NCBI GenBank assembly: GCA_015234425.1 | Contig: JADGNE010000046.1 | Coordinates: 91,306 to 155,305, forward strand | Source: Devosia sp. | GTDB taxonomy: Bacteria > Pseudomonadota > Alphaproteobacteria > Rhizobiales > Devosiaceae | DNA: 64,000 nucleotides | Reading direction: 5' to 3' | Shown: positions 2,907 through 8,697 of the stretch, piece after piece | Layout: the number at the start of each line of letters is the position of its first letter | How positions within the stretch are numbered: position 1 is the stretch's first letter | The notes under the pieces: model-generated | Database searches by the model: none | What the model was told of the DNA's origin: nothing | Seen by the model: only the letters and a program-made list of their open reading frames with translations | Position numbers and translations under genes: made by a program

Positions 2907-3839
2907 ATGAACACGACCGGCACCCCCAGGCATTTTCTCTCGATCGACGACTTTTCCTATGAAGAGCTGCGCGGCATGCTCAACCAGGCCTACGCCCTCA
3001 AGGAGCGGCTCAAGGATGGTGATCGCCCGCAGCTTTTGAAAGACAAAGTCCTGGCCATGATTTTCGAGCGCCAGTCGACCCGTACCCGCGTCAGCTTCGA
3101 TGTCGGCATGCGCCAGCTCGGCGGCGAAACCATCATGCTCTCCGGCCAGGAGATGCAGCTCAGCCGCGAGGAAACCCTCGCCGACACCGCCAAGGTCATG
3201 AGCCGCTATGTTGATGCCATCATGATCCGCATCCTCAGCCACGCCGATCTGCTCGAGCTGGCCGAAGCGGCCACCGTGCCCGTGATCAATGGCCTGACGC
3301 GCCGCGCCCATCCCTGCCAGATCATGGCTGATCTCATGACCTTTGAAGAGCATCGCGGCGATATCCGCGGCGCCAAGGTCGCCTGGGTCGGGGACAGCAA
3401 TAATGTGCTCCATTCCTGGGTCAACGCAGCCGAGCTCTTCGAATGCGAGCTGACCATCGCCGTTCCGGATGAATACAGCCCGGAAAAAGACCTGATGCAG
3501 GACATTCGTCGCGCTGGCGACAAGGTGCGCCTCATTGAAGATCCACGCGAAGCCGTCGAAGGCGCCGACCTCGTCATCACCGACACCTGGGTGTCGATGG
3601 GTGACGTCGATGCCGCCGAGCGCCGCCGGGTCTTGAAACCCTACCAGGTGAACACCAATTTGATGTCCTTGGCGAACAAGGATGCCCTGTTCATGCACTG
3701 CCTGCCCGCCCACCGTGGCGATGAGGTGACCGACGAAGTGATCGACGGTCCCCAGTCGGTAGTGTTCGACGAGGCCGAAAATCGCCTGCATGCCCAGAAA
3801 GCAGTATTGTGCTGGGCCTTCGGGGTCGCGACGAACTAG
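2907..3839 (+). CDS. argF: Ornithine carbamoyltransferase, anabolic
   Basis: Transfers carbamoyl phosphate to ornithine to give citrulline. The carbamoyl-phosphate site [17 protein letters not shown] and the ornithine-site HCLPAHRG are intact; HPCQIMADL is also visible. The frame opens at 2883, but the ATG at 2907 follows AAAAAGGAACC and gives 310 aa, the usual length. Together with argD upstream it supplies the ornithine-to-citrulline part of arginine synthesis. hslO follows in the same direction after a gap with its own hairpin. Confidence 0.95.
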
Positions 3840-3902: not shown

Positions 3903-4008
3903 CTCTTCTTTAGCCAGAGGAGATCCCGCCGCGCGGGAAGGGTGAGGGCGCTGGTCGGGTAGCGCGTTGCGGCCGGGAGGCGTAGCCTCAAGGAAAGTTT
4001 TGCCTCTC

Positions 4009-5016
4009 ATGACGACGGATGCCACGACCATGACCGAAAACCTGCTCAGTGCCGTGGGCCTGGATCGCCCGGAAACCGGCGATGACGCCGTGGTGCCCTT
4101 TACGCTCGAAAAACTCGACACACGCGGCCGTTCCGTGCGTCTGGGGCCCGCCCTCGACGCTATCCTGTCGCGCCATGATTACCCCGTTCCGGTCGCGCGC
4201 CTGCTTGGTGAAGCCGTGGTGCTCGCCTCGCTCATCGGCTCGTCGCTGAAGTTCGAGGGCCGCTTTATCCTCCAGACCCAGACCGATGGTCCGGTCAATC
4301 TCATCGTCGTCGACTTTGAGGCACCCGATGGCATTCGCGGCTATGCCCGCTTTGACCGTGACCTGCTGCTCAAGGCTGCCGAAGAGGGCCGCACCAGTGC
4401 GCCCGAGCTGCTGGGCAAGGGCCATCTGGCCATGACCATCGATCAGGGCCAGCACACCGAGCGCTACCAGGGTATCGTTGCGCTCGACGGCAATGGTTTT
4501 GAGGAAGTGGCTCATACCTACTTCCTTCAGTCCGAGCAGATCCCCACCCAGGTGCGGATCGCCGTGGCGCAGATGACCACCAAGGGTGACCATCGTCCGC
4601 GCTGGCGCGCTGGTGGCTTGCTGATCCAGCACCTGCCCCAGAGCGGCATACCGGTGCATACCGACTTGCCGGGCGACGGCAATTTCGACAACAGCGATAC
4701 GGCCAATCCGGACGGCTGGAACGAAGCCCGCGCCATGCTGGCGACGGTCGAAGATCTGGAACTGGCGGATCCCGAAGTCTCGCCCGAGCGCCTGTTGTTC
4801 CGGCTCTATCACGAAACCGGCGTGCGGGTGTTCCCGCCGGCCGGCCTTGAGGAGCGCTGCACCTGTTCGGTCGACCGGATCGAGGACATGCTGGCCAACA
4901 GCTTCACCGACGAAGAACGCGAAGACATGGCTGTGGACGGTGAGATCGAAGTGGTCTGTGAGTTCTGCTCGACAGCCTATCGGTTTAACCCACACCAATT
5001 TCACGCCAAGAACTGA
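4009..5016 (+). CDS. hslO: Hsp33 redox-regulated molecular chaperone
   Basis: Cytosolic holdase activated by oxidation. The C-terminal zinc switch is present as CTC (residues about 283-285) and CEFC near residue 320, i.e. the CxC...CxxC arrangement. The N-terminal part shows the Hsp33 fold blocks (RGRSVRLGPALDAIL, LGEAVVLASLIGSSLKFEGR). The length of 335 aa is slightly above the classic size of about 290, as in other alphaproteobacteria. The start at 4009 follows AAGGAAAG; an internal ATG at 4030 (MTENLLSAVG) is also possible. A strong terminator follows at 5084-5120. Confidence 0.93.
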   Translation: MTTDATTMTENLLSAVGLDRPETGDDAVVPFTLEKLDTRGRSVRLGPALDAILSRHDYPVPVARLLGEAVVLASLIGSSLKFEGRFILQTQTDGPVNLIVVDFEAPDGIRGYARFDRDLLLKAAEEGRTSAPELLGKGHLAMTIDQGQHTERYQGIVALDGNGFEEVAHTYFLQSEQIPTQVRIAVAQMTTKGDHRPRWRAGGLLIQHLPQSGIPVHTDLPGDGNFDNSDTANPDGWNEARAMLATVEDLELADPEVSPERLLFRLYHETGVRVFPPAGLEERCTCSVDRIEDMLANSFTDEEREDMAVDGEIEVVCEFCSTAYRFNPHQFHAKN

Positions 5017-5083
5017 TCTGGCTGAGTAGGATTTCGGGCGTGTTGGGGACGTGTCTAAACCTATGTTAATGCAATGATGCTGG

Positions 5084-5120
5084 ACGGCGCAGTAGGGATA
5101 GATTATCCCGGCTGCGCCGT
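5084..5120 (+). terminator. Terminator of hslO
   Basis: The outer stem ACGGCGCAG (5084-5092) pairs with CTGCGCCGT (5112-5120), with an inner GGGATA/TATCCC stem. The tail is TCTTCGTTTA. Confidence 0.75.
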
Positions 5121-5157
5121 TCTTCGTTTAGACGTGCAGGCGTTTTTCGCTGGCTGA

Positions 5158-5172
5158 GATTGCTCAGCAATC
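5158..5172. promoter_or_regulatory. 15-bp palindrome upstream of luxR (candidate operator)
   Basis: GATTGCT-C-AGCAATC is a perfect dyad about 210 bases before the luxR ATG. Dyads of this size upstream of quorum-sensing genes can be lux-box-type operators. The assignment is inference. Confidence 0.35.
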
Positions 5173-5382
5173 GAATTTACAGGCGATCTGCACGGGTGAT
5201 GGAAATCAGTGGTGGCGGAGCGATACGAGACTTTTGTATTGCTTGCTGAAGCCTCTGAAGACTGTTTTGTGAAGTCGACGTTGGAATGAGCAGTGCCGCG
5301 GGGCGGCGTGTATTTTACTCAAGCGTCGATTGAATTGGATCCTGTTGTTTATGGGGGCATCTACAACTTGAATTCTGAACGA

Positions 5383-6087
5383 ATGGCAAGCATCGAGGCG
5401 TTGCAGCGCCAGGATACGGCCGAAGGTGTTCGGAAGGTCTTGCAAAATGCGCTTGAGCGGTACGGCTTTCACCGCTTCGTCATCTCCGGACTTCCCGACA
5501 GTGCAAAAGATATCCGAGAGTATGTCATGCTCTCCGGCTGGGACGACGAGTGGCTGGGGCGCTATACCGAGCGCGACTACTTTTCGGTCGACCCCTTGGT
5601 CCGACACTGCTTTACCACGACACTGCCGTTCGACTGGTCGAGTGCCCGCTACGATCCCGAAAGGGATGTCGGCACGCACAGGATGATGCAGGACGCCAAG
5701 GAATTCGGCATGTCTGATGGCATCTGCGTGCCCTTCCATATGGATGGCGGCATGCAGGCAGCAATGTCGATGAAAGGCGATCCCAAGGCCATCAGCCCGT
5801 CCGAACGGCTCGAATTGCATATGCTGACGGTCTATGCGCTCGGACAATTGCGCTTTCTCAATACGTTCTCGCAGGAGGGCCTGGCTCAGCGCACCATCAC
5901 GCCGCGTGAGGCCGAAATGCTCAAATGGGCAGCCATGGGCAAGACGGCCGGCGAGATCGCCGAGATCACCGGCACCAGCGTGCGCACAGTCAACCAGCAC
6001 TGCGAAAATGCCCAGCGGCGGCTCGGGACCCGAAATCGATTGCAGACCGTGGTCGAGGCAATGCGCCGTAACCTAATCACTTTGTGA
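5383..6087 (+). CDS. LuxR-family quorum-sensing regulator (autoinducer-binding plus GerE HTH)
   Basis: A DNA-binding receptor for an acyl-homoserine-lactone-type signal. With the ATG at 5383 the protein is 234 aa and the six invariant ligand-pocket residues of the family fall at W57, Y61, D70, P71, W85 and G113, the same numbers as in TraR. This strongly supports that start over the GTG at 5293, although the ribosome site is weak. The C-terminal helix-turn-helix (about 170-225) shows TPREAEMLKWAAMGKTAGEIA followed by TVNQH. The synthase-like gene follows 100 bases downstream. Third codon positions look less GC-biased than in neighbouring housekeeping genes. Confidence 0.9.
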   Translation: MASIEALQRQDTAEGVRKVLQNALERYGFHRFVISGLPDSAKDIREYVMLSGWDDEWLGRYTERDYFSVDPLVRHCFTTTLPFDWSSARYDPERDVGTHRMMQDAKEFGMSDGICVPFHMDGGMQAAMSMKGDPKAISPSERLELHMLTVYALGQLRFLNTFSQEGLAQRTITPREAEMLKWAAMGKTAGEIAEITGTSVRTVNQHCENAQRRLGTRNRLQTVVEAMRRNLITL

Positions 6088-6187
6088 TACGCACTACCTC
6101 CAAAGCGCTTCGATATTGGGATTTCTGCCAATTTCCGACTTGTGGTAGGCTGTGGCTAATAGGGCAGGCAGTGCGGGGGGCGGTGCT

Positions 6188-6838
6188 ATGCAGGTCGAGA
6201 TCATCCGCATGCCGGCGGATCCAAAACGACAGCGCTTGCTTGAAGAGAATTTTCGCCTGCGTCATCAGGTCCGAATTGACCAAGAGGGCTGGCAGGCGGC
6301 CAATATGCCGGACGGGCAGGTAGTCGACGAGTTCGACGCACCAGGCTCAGTTCATATCCTCATTATCGAGGGGGGCGAAATGGTGGGAGGATCCCGCCTC
6401 ACTCCCCTTGATCGACCTAACTTGCTGCAGACAGCCTATTCCGGGCTTGTGCAAGGAGAATTCCCCGACCATCCTTCGCTTGGGGCCGATTGGACACATT
6501 ACTACGTGCTTCCTAATCGACGTGAAGGTGGCCGGCGCACTCCGGAGTCTGCAGCCCTTTTCTCTGCGGTGATGGAGCATGCCCTCGATGAAGGGTATCG
6601 CTTCCTCACCTTTGTCGTGCCCCTGGCGTTCATCGAATGCTGCGCGTCAGTGGGCTGGCGAATAACCCCGCTCGGCGCGCCGCTGATGCTGGGCGGGCGC
6701 CCCAGCGTGGCAGCCTGGATCGCTGTTAACGAAACCGCCCTCTTCAATGCGCGCCTGGCTGGCGGGGTGGTGGATGAGCCCGCCCCCTCCGGCGCCTGGG
6801 GGCCTGATAGCGTCCCACCCTCCCGCTTCATTCATTAG
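6188..6838 (+). CDS. Acyl-homoserine-lactone synthase-like protein (divergent LuxI family)
   Basis: LuxI-type enzymes join an acyl or aryl group to S-adenosylmethionine to make a diffusible signal. Family features are MQVEIIRMP, the FRLRHQ helix (R25), W35, the DEFD block (D47, D50), R70 in GGSRLTP, and a GNAT-like C-terminal half. Against my memory of RpaI/BjaI-type synthases several normally invariant residues differ: the acid before DxxD is V45, the WELSR-type Glu is D101 and its Arg is H104. The ATG at 6188 follows GGGGGCGG and gives 216 aa. It is paired with the LuxR gene upstream and followed 11 bases later by a glycosyltransferase. Activity is uncertain. Confidence 0.75.
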   Translation: MQVEIIRMPADPKRQRLLEENFRLRHQVRIDQEGWQAANMPDGQVVDEFDAPGSVHILIIEGGEMVGGSRLTPLDRPNLLQTAYSGLVQGEFPDHPSLGADWTHYYVLPNRREGGRRTPESAALFSAVMEHALDEGYRFLTFVVPLAFIECCASVGWRITPLGAPLMLGGRPSVAAWIAVNETALFNARLAGGVVDEPAPSGAWGPDSVPPSRFIH

Positions 6839-6849
6839 CTGCAACAGCG

Positions 6850-8697
6850 ATGGTCTCGGCGTCTCGGCTTATGCAGGCGATCATGGGACCCGACGGGAAT
6901 GAAGAAGAGGCGCGCCGCCTTTTGCGCGCGGCCGAGGCCTCGGGCGCGGATGCCCTGTTCCATATGGCGGTCGAGCGCGGTCTTGGCATGGATGTGGTCC
7001 TGCGCCGCGCCGCCCATTTTCTCGGCTTTGCCTATTTCGATGTGATCGCCGACACCGGCGAGGCACTCTCGCCGGCCCGTCCTGAACTGCTCGCCGATAT
7101 CCGTGTGGTCCGGGTGAAAACCATTGACCGCATGGTGACCTACGCCGCGCCAGACTTTGCCGGGCTTCTCAACCTCCACGCCGCCGCCCTTGCCGACGAA
7201 ACCCTGTTCCGGCGCGTCTGTATCGTGCCCCATGCGGCCATGAAGCAATATCTGGCTCGCGCCGCTTCCGAGGTGCTGATCACCGGCGCGCGCCAGAACC
7301 TGACTGTCAAATGGCCCCACGCGGTGGCCGGGCTCGAACTCGGCAAGCCCATTCGGTATGGCTTCGCGCTCGCCCTGCTGGGGCTGGTGGCCGGTCTGCT
7401 TGCCTTGCCCTTTATTGACGCCGCCTGGCCTCTGGCGCTGTGGATGCCCGTCATGCTGCTGCCAACGCTGCTGCGGCTGGCGGCACTGATGATGCCCGAT
7501 CCGGTGCCCCAGCCCGGCACCGCGCCCGATGAGCATCCGTCCGACATGCCCATCTATTCGGTGCTCGTGCCGCTGCGCGACGAGGCCGACATGGTCAATC
7601 AGCTTTGTCTTGCCCTCAATCGTATCGACTACCCCGCCCACAGGCTCGACATCATCTTTGTCGTCGAAGCCCGCTCCCCGGAAACCTTGGCGGCCGTCAG
7701 CCAGAACCTCGACAATCCGCGCTTCTGCCTGCTCGAGGTCCCCCATGCCCTGCCGCTGACCAAGCCTAAGGCGCTCGACTTCGCCCTGCCGTTCTGTCGC
7801 GGGGAGTTTGTCGTCGTCTTCGATGCCGAGGATCGGCCTGAGCCGGACCAGCTGCGCCGCGTGCTGCGCCATTTTCGTCGCGCCCCGAACCTGCACTGCA
7901 TCCAGGCGCGGCTTGTGATCGCCAATGGACGAAAGGGCGTCTTCCCGGCGCTCTTTGCTGGCGAATACGCCGGATTGTTCTCGGTGTTCCTGCCGGCGCT
8001 CGCCCGCTGGGGCGTGGTCATGCCGCTCGGCGGCACCTCCAACCATTTTCGCCTCTCGAGCCTGCGCGCCATCGGTGGCTGGGACGCCTATAATGTTACC
8101 GAGGATGCCGATCTCGGCGTGCGCCTGGCGCGGCGTCGCCTCGCCTGCGGCACCAGCACGGCGGTGACCTGGGAAGATGCGCCGGAAACCTTTCCGACCT
8201 GGGTCGGTCAACGGGCGCGCTGGATGAAGGGCTGGATGCAGACCTTTCTCGTCCACAACCGTCATCCGCGCGAATTGCTCGGCGATCTGGGCTGGCGGCG
8301 CCTCGTGGCATTCGAGCTGATCGTCATCAGCATGGTGCTCGGCCCGCTCCTGCACACCGGCTTTTTGATCCTTGCCATGGTGCAGCTGGCTTATGGCGGT
8401 CTGGTGCTGCCGCGCATCGGCCTTTGGGCGCTGTGCTGCGTCGGCGTCATGGCCCTCGGCTATTGCGTGGCCATCGCGACAGCCATTGTCGGACTGCGGC
8501 GCACCCGCCAGACTGAACTGGTCGCGGCGCAATTTCTGTTGCCGGTCTATTGGCTGCTGATCGCCTGGGCGACCCTGCGGGCCCTGCGCGACCTTGTCTT
8601 CCGGCCCTTCCACTGGATCAAGACCCGCCACAGCCCCGCGACGGTTGCTGCGCCACCTCCGCAACTCTCCGCGCCAGAAAGCACTGTCCGCCCTTGA
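6850..8697 (+). CDS. Family 2 membrane glycosyltransferase (cellulose-synthase-like)
   Basis: A 615-aa inner-membrane processive-type glycosyltransferase. An N-terminal soluble region of about 165 residues precedes a pair of hydrophobic segments (about 172-220). The GT-A domain follows with DAED at about 325-328, TEDADLG at about 415 and QRARW at about 454, the D, DxD, TED and QxxRW signature. Three or four C-terminal membrane segments end near residue 590. The substrate is unknown; polysaccharide export at the inner membrane is the usual role. Only 11 bases separate it from the LuxI-like gene, so it may share that transcript and be under quorum control (inference). Confidence 0.82.
   Translation: MVSASRLMQAIMGPDGNEEEARRLLRAAEASGADALFHMAVERGLGMDVVLRRAAHFLGFAYFDVIADTGEALSPARPELLADIRVVRVKTIDRMVTYAAPDFAGLLNLHAAALADETLFRRVCIVPHAAMKQYLARAASEVLITGARQNLTVKWPHAVAGLELGKPIRYGFALALLGLVAGLLALPFIDAAWPLALWMPVMLLPTLLRLAALMMPDPVPQPGTAPDEHPSDMPIYSVLVPLRDEADMVNQLCLALNRIDYPAHRLDIIFVVEARSPETLAAVSQNLDNPRFCLLEVPHALPLTKPKALDFALPFCRGEFVVVFDAEDRPEPDQLRRVLRHFRRAPNLHCIQARLVIANGRKGVFPALFAGEYAGLFSVFLPALARWGVVMPLGGTSNHFRLSSLRAIGGWDAYNVTEDADLGVRLARRRLACGTSTAVTWEDAPETFPTWVGQRARWMKGWMQTFLVHNRHPRELLGDLGWRRLVAFELIVISMVLGPLLHTGFLILAMVQLAYGGLVLPRIGLWALCCVGVMALGYCVAIATAIVGLRRTRQTELVAAQFLLPVYWLLIAWATLRALRDLVFRPFHWIKTRHSPATVAAPPPQLSAPESTVRP

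Follow-up and report, generated by a model that had tools for sequence, protein, structure and literature searches.

A structured RNA nested in the luxI gene of Devosia and kept where the luxI frame is lost

A 64-kb stretch of DNA from Devosia sp. (contig JADGNE010000046.1, positions 91,306 to 155,305; "the window" below is this whole stretch) carries a luxR gene followed by a luxI-like gene whose product differs from solved autoinducer synthases at four positions. Comparison across 75 genomes of the genus Devosia shows that luxI holds a 145-nucleotide (nt) element kept by selection as RNA, and the presence of a structured RNA inside the coding sequence helps to explain why this DNA is kept. 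Judging from sequence comparison, we propose, with a probability of roughly 70%, that the locus is a quorum-sensing module with two products, in which a LuxR-controlled transcript supplies both the luxI mRNA and the RNA, and that the enzyme has faded in the window species. Position numbers are those of the window, G-numbers denote genomes and L-numbers denote the loci compared. The features at issue are the following.

5383..6087, + strand: luxR, an N-acyl homoserine lactone (AHL)-type receptor/regulator of 234 amino acids with intact pocket residues
6188..6838, + strand: luxI-like open reading frame (ORF) of 216 amino acids, assessed by profile, alignment, fold and the ratio of nonsynonymous to synonymous divergence (dN/dS)
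6272-6274, 6320-6322, 6488-6490 and 6497-6499, + strand: the luxI codons for R29, V45, D101 and H104
6419..6563, + strand as indicated by G-U pairs: structured RNA element of 145 nt (covariance model R1), within luxI codons 78-126

The RNA element within luxI

Twenty-eight of the 75 genomes carry luxR together with an intact luxI, and six carry a wrecked luxI (G019, G043, G042, G050, G034 and G010). A block matching luxI codons ~74-130 survives in all six wrecks. This block is the only part of luxI that blastn can align in G043, G042 and G050; G034 and G010 additionally keep luxI codons ~185-201, and in G019 what remains is codons 1-25 and 63-168. In these wrecks luxR may be damaged as well, being split over two frames in G042 and absent from the locus in G050, G034 and G010. 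Two further genomes (G021 and G059) have no luxI or luxR match and keep the RNA at the same site, between hslO and a family-2 glycosyltransferase (GT) gene.

One explanation for such a pattern is a small protein, derived from the centre of LuxI and conserved in the wrecks. In five of the six, the luxI frame is indeed uninterrupted over the block. However, differences at codon positions 1, 2 and 3 are near-equal in the five indel-free wrecks of equal length (0.325/0.350/0.406, compared with 0.094/0.086/0.303 in 23 intact genes), the block measures 144, 137 and 143 nt in G042, G021 and G059 instead of 145, and no common start or N-terminus is apparent by eye in the translations. Base pairing is what is kept: in the same five wrecks, paired bases vary less than unpaired bases (0.285 versus 0.470). 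A microprotein in the wrecks is, in our judgement, barely plausible.

The fold consists of a closing stem formed by positions 6424-6432 and 6547-6555 (strands GCUGCAGAC and GUCUGCAGC, followed by CCUUUUCU), a long rod, a bulge with an invariant GGGG, and a U-tract at 6558-6561. Relative to dinucleotide shuffles, the z-score of the fold is -2.63 in the window (stretch 6421-6565) and ranges from -2.45 to -4.35 in five wrecks, G019 not being among them. Compensatory change exceeds both shuffled and slid controls in each of two alignments. Among 29 sequences, 88.5% of cells are paired and covariation is 0.119; shuffles give 0.090 (none of 500 reached the observed value) and slid controls 0.060 or less. 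In the eight wreck or RNA-only copies, an alignment that was fitted to the model and shares six of its eight members with R1, 87.5% of cells are paired and covariation is 0.283; here shuffles give 0.167 (again none of 500 reached the observed value) and slid controls 0.099 or less. Since G-U cells outnumber A-C cells, the pairs point to the + strand as the strand of the RNA.

Intact genes are constrained over the same block. Synonymous difference along luxI dips at codons ~66-135 (300 genome pairs), and the proportion of synonymous differences (pS) is 0.339 over codons 78-126, compared with 0.561 in the lowest of 186 stretches of 49 codons in luxR and 0.442 in the lowest of 301 in hslO, a comparison made without the window, G060 and G011. 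When intact luxI genes were recoded synonymously, none of 100 recodings each reached the native fold in 26 of 27 genes, the native mean pair probability being 0.50-0.86. The exception is G011 (locus L167), in which the LuxI protein is intact and the RNA closing stem is broken, with an R1 score of 84.1 bits. Between G011 and G008, the one pair compared, synonymous divergence (dS) is 1.51 in the RNA element and 0.55 outside it, and in the other 14 pairs element dS is 0.03-0.48. By this comparison G011 is a natural control, the synonymous constraint being gone where the fold is broken.

Ordinary pseudogenisation, with the surviving block as leftover sequence or a DNA-level site, would agree with the luxR and luxI genes that are missing or broken in many Devosia, and PMC13133039 reports degraded luxI genes, or luxI pseudogenes, in Rhizobium. 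However, it is the same ~150 nt that survives each time, and five of the six wrecks have lost most of the remainder. The block also carries compensatory pairs. Its eight copies have 31 G-U cells and 6 A-C cells (p 2e-5 on an assumption of independent cells, which does not hold), and synonymous change is suppressed in intact genes, a suppression that is lost in G011. We consider ordinary pseudogenisation very unlikely.

Several observations nonetheless weigh against the RNA, or at least against its details. Two-sided pairs number 14 versus 5-12 in slid controls for the eight copies and 12 versus 7-11 for the 29 sequences, a count that discriminates poorly and is weak when taken alone. The native free energy is ordinary relative to synonymous recodings (mean z -0.63). 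Unaided RNAalifold on the 29 sequences returns the closing stem with a different interior and 25 pairs, and the full structure was drawn by us from the wreck copies. The 29 sequences were taken from 33, with G011 (fold broken) and three near-duplicates dropped. A-C mismatches are fairly common in the 23 intact genes (41, versus 69 G-U), and element dS lies below outside dS in 13 of the 14 other pairs, not in all of them. Finally, 39 of the 75 Devosia have no R1 match, which means that the genus can do without the RNA.

Distribution and control of the locus

R1 scores the window element at 148.6 bits and matches 36 of the 75 Devosia, namely the 28 with an intact luxI, the six wrecks and the two RNA-only genomes, both of which are outside the model. 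With filters off, it reaches at most 14.3 bits in the four genomes that have luxR alone (G017, G018, G026 and G065) and in the 33 that show none of luxR, luxI or the RNA, three of which break off at the end of a contig short of GT. In G069 luxR is broken and lies at a contig end, and G072 has no hslO match.

On a tree of argF and hslO (2,001 nt, midpoint-rooted, no outgroup), the intact locus is scattered on both sides of the root, and loss of the luxI frame with retention of the RNA maps to six places: G019, G034, G043, G050, G010 with G042, and G021 with G059. Transfer between species is possible, but wherever both hslO and GT are seen the locus lies between them, and this fixed site argues for descent.

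Beyond the genus, a weak R1 match (E 0.009) occurs at L221 (positions 3760-3802) of G116, from another genus of the Devosiaceae, where a short hairpin shares the closing-stem sequence. We rejected it as a relative of the RNA; it is an ordinary terminator-like hairpin, with no match to the ten query proteins (argD to ahcY, luxR and luxI). No other match outside Devosia was found among 136 genomes of the family and 397 sampled from the order, under stricter filters by which weak matches are lost. No Rfam 15 family matches at the element, either in window positions 5000-7200 (E up to 5) or in the loci of five relatives (E up to 1). 6S RNA is also a long closed rod and is of similar size. It differs in that the luxI element has no match to the 6S family (RF00013), there is no 6S match at the locus, and a separate 6S match (C67, 75.3 bits) is present in another part of the window's genome, so 6S RNA was rejected.

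In the window, the locus sits in a run of genes in one direction: argD, argF (OTC), hslO, luxR, luxI, GT, a gene for a DUF2937 protein, and ahcY. The names argD, argF and ahcY rest on translations, with no profile search. The neighbours and control features are as follows.

3967..5016, + strand: hslO (Hsp33), conserved 5' neighbour and synteny anchor
6116..6135, + strand: LuxR-box-like palindrome TTGGGATTTCTGCCAATTTC, of putative function, its centre ~43 bp upstream of the predicted start site
6152..6160, + strand: -10-like motif GTGGCTAAT, read from the sequences; many relatives have GTGCCTAAT
6850..8697, + strand: GT (glycosyltransferase family 2), directly downstream and the conserved 3' neighbour of the locus

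Just downstream of hslO, positions 5085-5125 form a GC-rich hairpin that has a weak Rfam match (Plasmid_R1162, E 0.76) and is probably the hslO terminator.

From its position and symmetry, we infer that the palindrome at 6116-6135 is a LuxR box. A pattern for this box matches the window only once in 64 kb, between luxR and luxI. Across the loci, it occurs upstream of luxI or the RNA in 26 of 37, with no match in the other sequence of these loci (561,789 nt), a result that is partly circular because the pattern was derived from these same sites. It misses 8 of 27 intact loci and three of four luxR-only loci, and several of the missed intact loci have variants by eye. A TAAT-containing -10-like motif follows ~20 nt past the end of the palindrome. 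All six wrecks have the box, including three (L073, L074 and L075, from G050, G034 and G010) without an adjacent luxR. In the RNA-only loci (L219 and L220, from G021 and G059) a different sequence, CAGTATTTNTTCGTAAG, is shared upstream of the RNA, as judged by eye, and may be a replaced promoter. A second match in the window's genome (C33:12484) lies inside an ORF that reads by eye as recA and looks like chance. Consensus scans for sigma-70 promoters and terminators find nothing at the locus, which counts against the transcript that we propose below.

The receptor and the synthase

The window LuxR matches Pfam Autoind_bind at 119.5 bits and GerE at 48.6 bits, and is a LuxR AHL receptor by these profiles and its pocket. 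Its gene starts at the ATG at 5383 and its stop ends at 6087, although an alternative upstream GTG at 5293 is possible. A sequence-only reading of the locus had placed all six pocket residues (W57, Y61, D70, P71, W85 and G113) in a numbering that we take to be that of TraR. The six are present in the translation at these numbers and are near-invariant: in an alignment of 36 LuxR proteins, of which two belong to the window's species, one comes from another genus and one is partial, Y61, D70, W85 and G113 are found in all 36, and W57 and P71 in 35. Between the window and its sister G060, luxR has a dN/dS of 0.15. Despite this low ratio, LuxR changes unusually fast between these two species, with 70% protein identity compared with 90% for Hsp33, 98% for OTC and 99% for AHCY.

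The adjoining luxI runs from the ATG at 6188 to a stop ending at 6838. Its product belongs to the LuxI synthases by both profile and fold. It matches Pfam Autoind_synth (PF00765) at 46.9 bits, with a cut-off of 24, and is the sole match above the curated cut-off in its genome; a second match, at L002 (G000 C51:864-1154), is sub-threshold at 21.2 bits. The best solved relatives by sequence are BjaI (5w8a), RpaI (6wn0) and MesI (6wns), followed by EsaI, and the closest folds to an AlphaFold model of the protein (mean predicted local distance difference test, pLDDT, 79.2) are RpaI and BjaI. The earlier description of an RpaI/BjaI-type enzyme with an altered pocket is thus borne out by sequence and fold matches.

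Aligned with the printed parts of the BjaI, RpaI, MesI and EsaI sequences, the window LuxI retains R25, W35, D47, D50 and R70, so that it shares these residues with the acyl-CoA-dependent synthases BjaI, RpaI and MesI, its best matches. From the aligned sequences it differs at four normally conserved positions, where R29 stands in place of F/Y, V45 and D101 each in place of E, and H104 in place of R. The ORF and the alignment confirm each of the retained and altered residues that had been read from the sequence, including the lost aromatic (R29), and the alignment did not place E and R at the catalytic positions, a placement that would have refuted the earlier reading. Seven LasI residues (R23, F27, D44, D47, R70, E101 and R104) are described as essential in a paper on another protein that cites LasI structure work (PMC4657338). 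Four of the seven are kept in the window LuxI (R25, D47, D50 and R70) and R29, D101 and H104 differ, the correspondence being drawn through the alignment with BjaI, RpaI, MesI and EsaI.

Whether the changes mark a new chemistry or a loss is best judged within the genus. The 28 genomes with an intact luxI orthologue (50-100% identity) include the window genome and a second genome of its species, and yield 27 distinct LuxI proteins, the window's and 26 more. D101 is present in all 27. F29, D45 and R104 are each present in 25, the exceptions being the window and its sister G060. The first inspection of the sequence had missed this division, in which the changes R29, V45 and H104 are private to two species, the window's and its sister, and D101 is shared by the whole genus; it had also missed the RNA nested in the gene. 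G060 has R29 and H104 as in the window, but G45 and N35, having lost W35. Because R29 and H104 are common to both, these losses would predate the split of the two species unless they are convergent. By this comparison, three of the four LuxI anomalies are lineage-specific erosion and not a clade-wide new chemistry, which we rejected given that 25 of 27 orthologues keep F29, D45 and R104.

The erosion is not free of constraint. Outside the RNA element, dN/dS between the window and sister luxI is 0.26 (bootstrap 0.15-0.44). This exceeds the value of each of 15 comparison pairs (median 0.12, maximum 0.24) but is well below 1, and simulated neutral drift would keep both frames free of stops with a probability of ~0.002 (total dS 0.445). 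A plain pseudogene is therefore unsupported for the window luxI, which, on these rates, is eroding under weaker but real constraint. The sequence-only reading had left two options, a new signal chemistry or an enzyme that no longer makes AHLs. As a trait of the group the first does not hold, the residues being normal in 25 of 27; the second is now the better option for the window species, because the three pocket residues are lost in this lineage only and luxI is wrecked or absent in many Devosia. Ordinary AHL synthesis has probably been lost in the window species, a loss that is not certain, since the frame is still under purifying selection.

An altered catalyst, in which R29, V45 and H104 are coordinated changes serving a different acyl donor or product and LuxR has co-evolved, would explain why the frame is open in two species with a dN/dS of this size, why the predicted fold is good, and why LuxR is intact and fast-changing. 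However, the sister has G45 in place of V45 and has also lost W35, which resembles loss and not a fixed new pocket, its dN/dS with the window exceeds that of every comparison pair, and F27, E101 and R104 are among the LasI residues listed as essential in PMC4657338. We regard an altered catalyst as unlikely.

The genus-wide D101 was also considered as a consequence of the RNA. In G090, from another genus of the Devosiaceae, LuxI has D101 with E45 and its gene has no R1 match with filters off; either D101 arose first or the RNA was lost in G090. Several Devosia also have further LuxI-type synthases of ~30% identity (G031:C25:33967, G046:C46:3977, G057:C35:519, G006:C54:1168730, G014:C14:1045957 and G016:C1:737986), and the two that were read (L032 of G057, and L121) have E and R at the catalytic positions.

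A module with two proposed products

We propose that LuxR, identified by homology, very likely activates a promoter at 6116-6160 that contains the box, and that one transcript would carry the luxI frame and, nested within it, the 145-nt structured RNA. The closing stem and U-tract probably end or stabilise a short transcript, which would be a small RNA (sRNA) or a leader upstream of GT, and the RNA would regulate either targets in trans or GT downstream of it. Comparison shows that the constraint on the RNA persists where the luxI frame is gone, at six places on the tree. In the window species and its sister, in which three pocket residues are lost and receptor, box and RNA are intact, synthase activity is most likely gone or strongly altered. 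The RNA output, plus perhaps a residual role of the protein, would then keep the window locus.

The block might instead act in cis alone, as a translation-coupled attenuator or stabiliser of luxI and GT, and not be a separate RNA. Wherever hslO and GT are both seen, it sits between them and upstream of GT, and it ends in a stem and U-tract; the distance from box to RNA varies from 167 to 317 nt (one chance second match in G060 left out), which means that the length of the transcript's 5' part is not conserved. However, the distance from RNA to GT also varies, and GT is at the site in 30 of the 33 fetched Devosia loci without the RNA. To a role in cis alone we give some credence, as a tentative alternative. 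For the separate regulatory RNA, we are inclined to think, on the comparative evidence, that a quorum-controlled RNA arose inside its own synthase gene and is the sole surviving product in several Devosia, with the window species part-way.

There are partial parallels. RhlS of Pseudomonas aeruginosa is an sRNA from the 5' untranslated region of rhlI and, as described in PMC6786874, resembles our proposal in that an RNA end induced by AHL is found at a synthase gene, behind a promoter with a Las box, transcription at the Devosia locus being presumed from sequence. In contrast to RhlS as described there, the Devosia element lies within the coding sequence and persists after the gene is lost. FtsO of Escherichia coli, one of the ORF-internal RNAs reported in PMC7815308, lies inside an open reading frame, as does the element in Devosia luxI. 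Among the matches listed in the open-licence literature, no paper described an RNA within luxI or sRNAs of Devosia. We know of no case in which FtsO survives the loss of its host ORF, and to our knowledge there is little precedent in bacteria for a protein gene ceding its place to a nested RNA.

Devosia holds what appear to be the stages of such a process side by side: both products, an eroded enzyme with the RNA, a wreck with the RNA, the RNA alone, and an enzyme whose RNA is broken. How an RNA gene arises within a coding sequence would thus be directly testable in one genus. It also follows that residue loss in LuxI homologues, or the retention of luxI-like DNA, need not concern signal chemistry.
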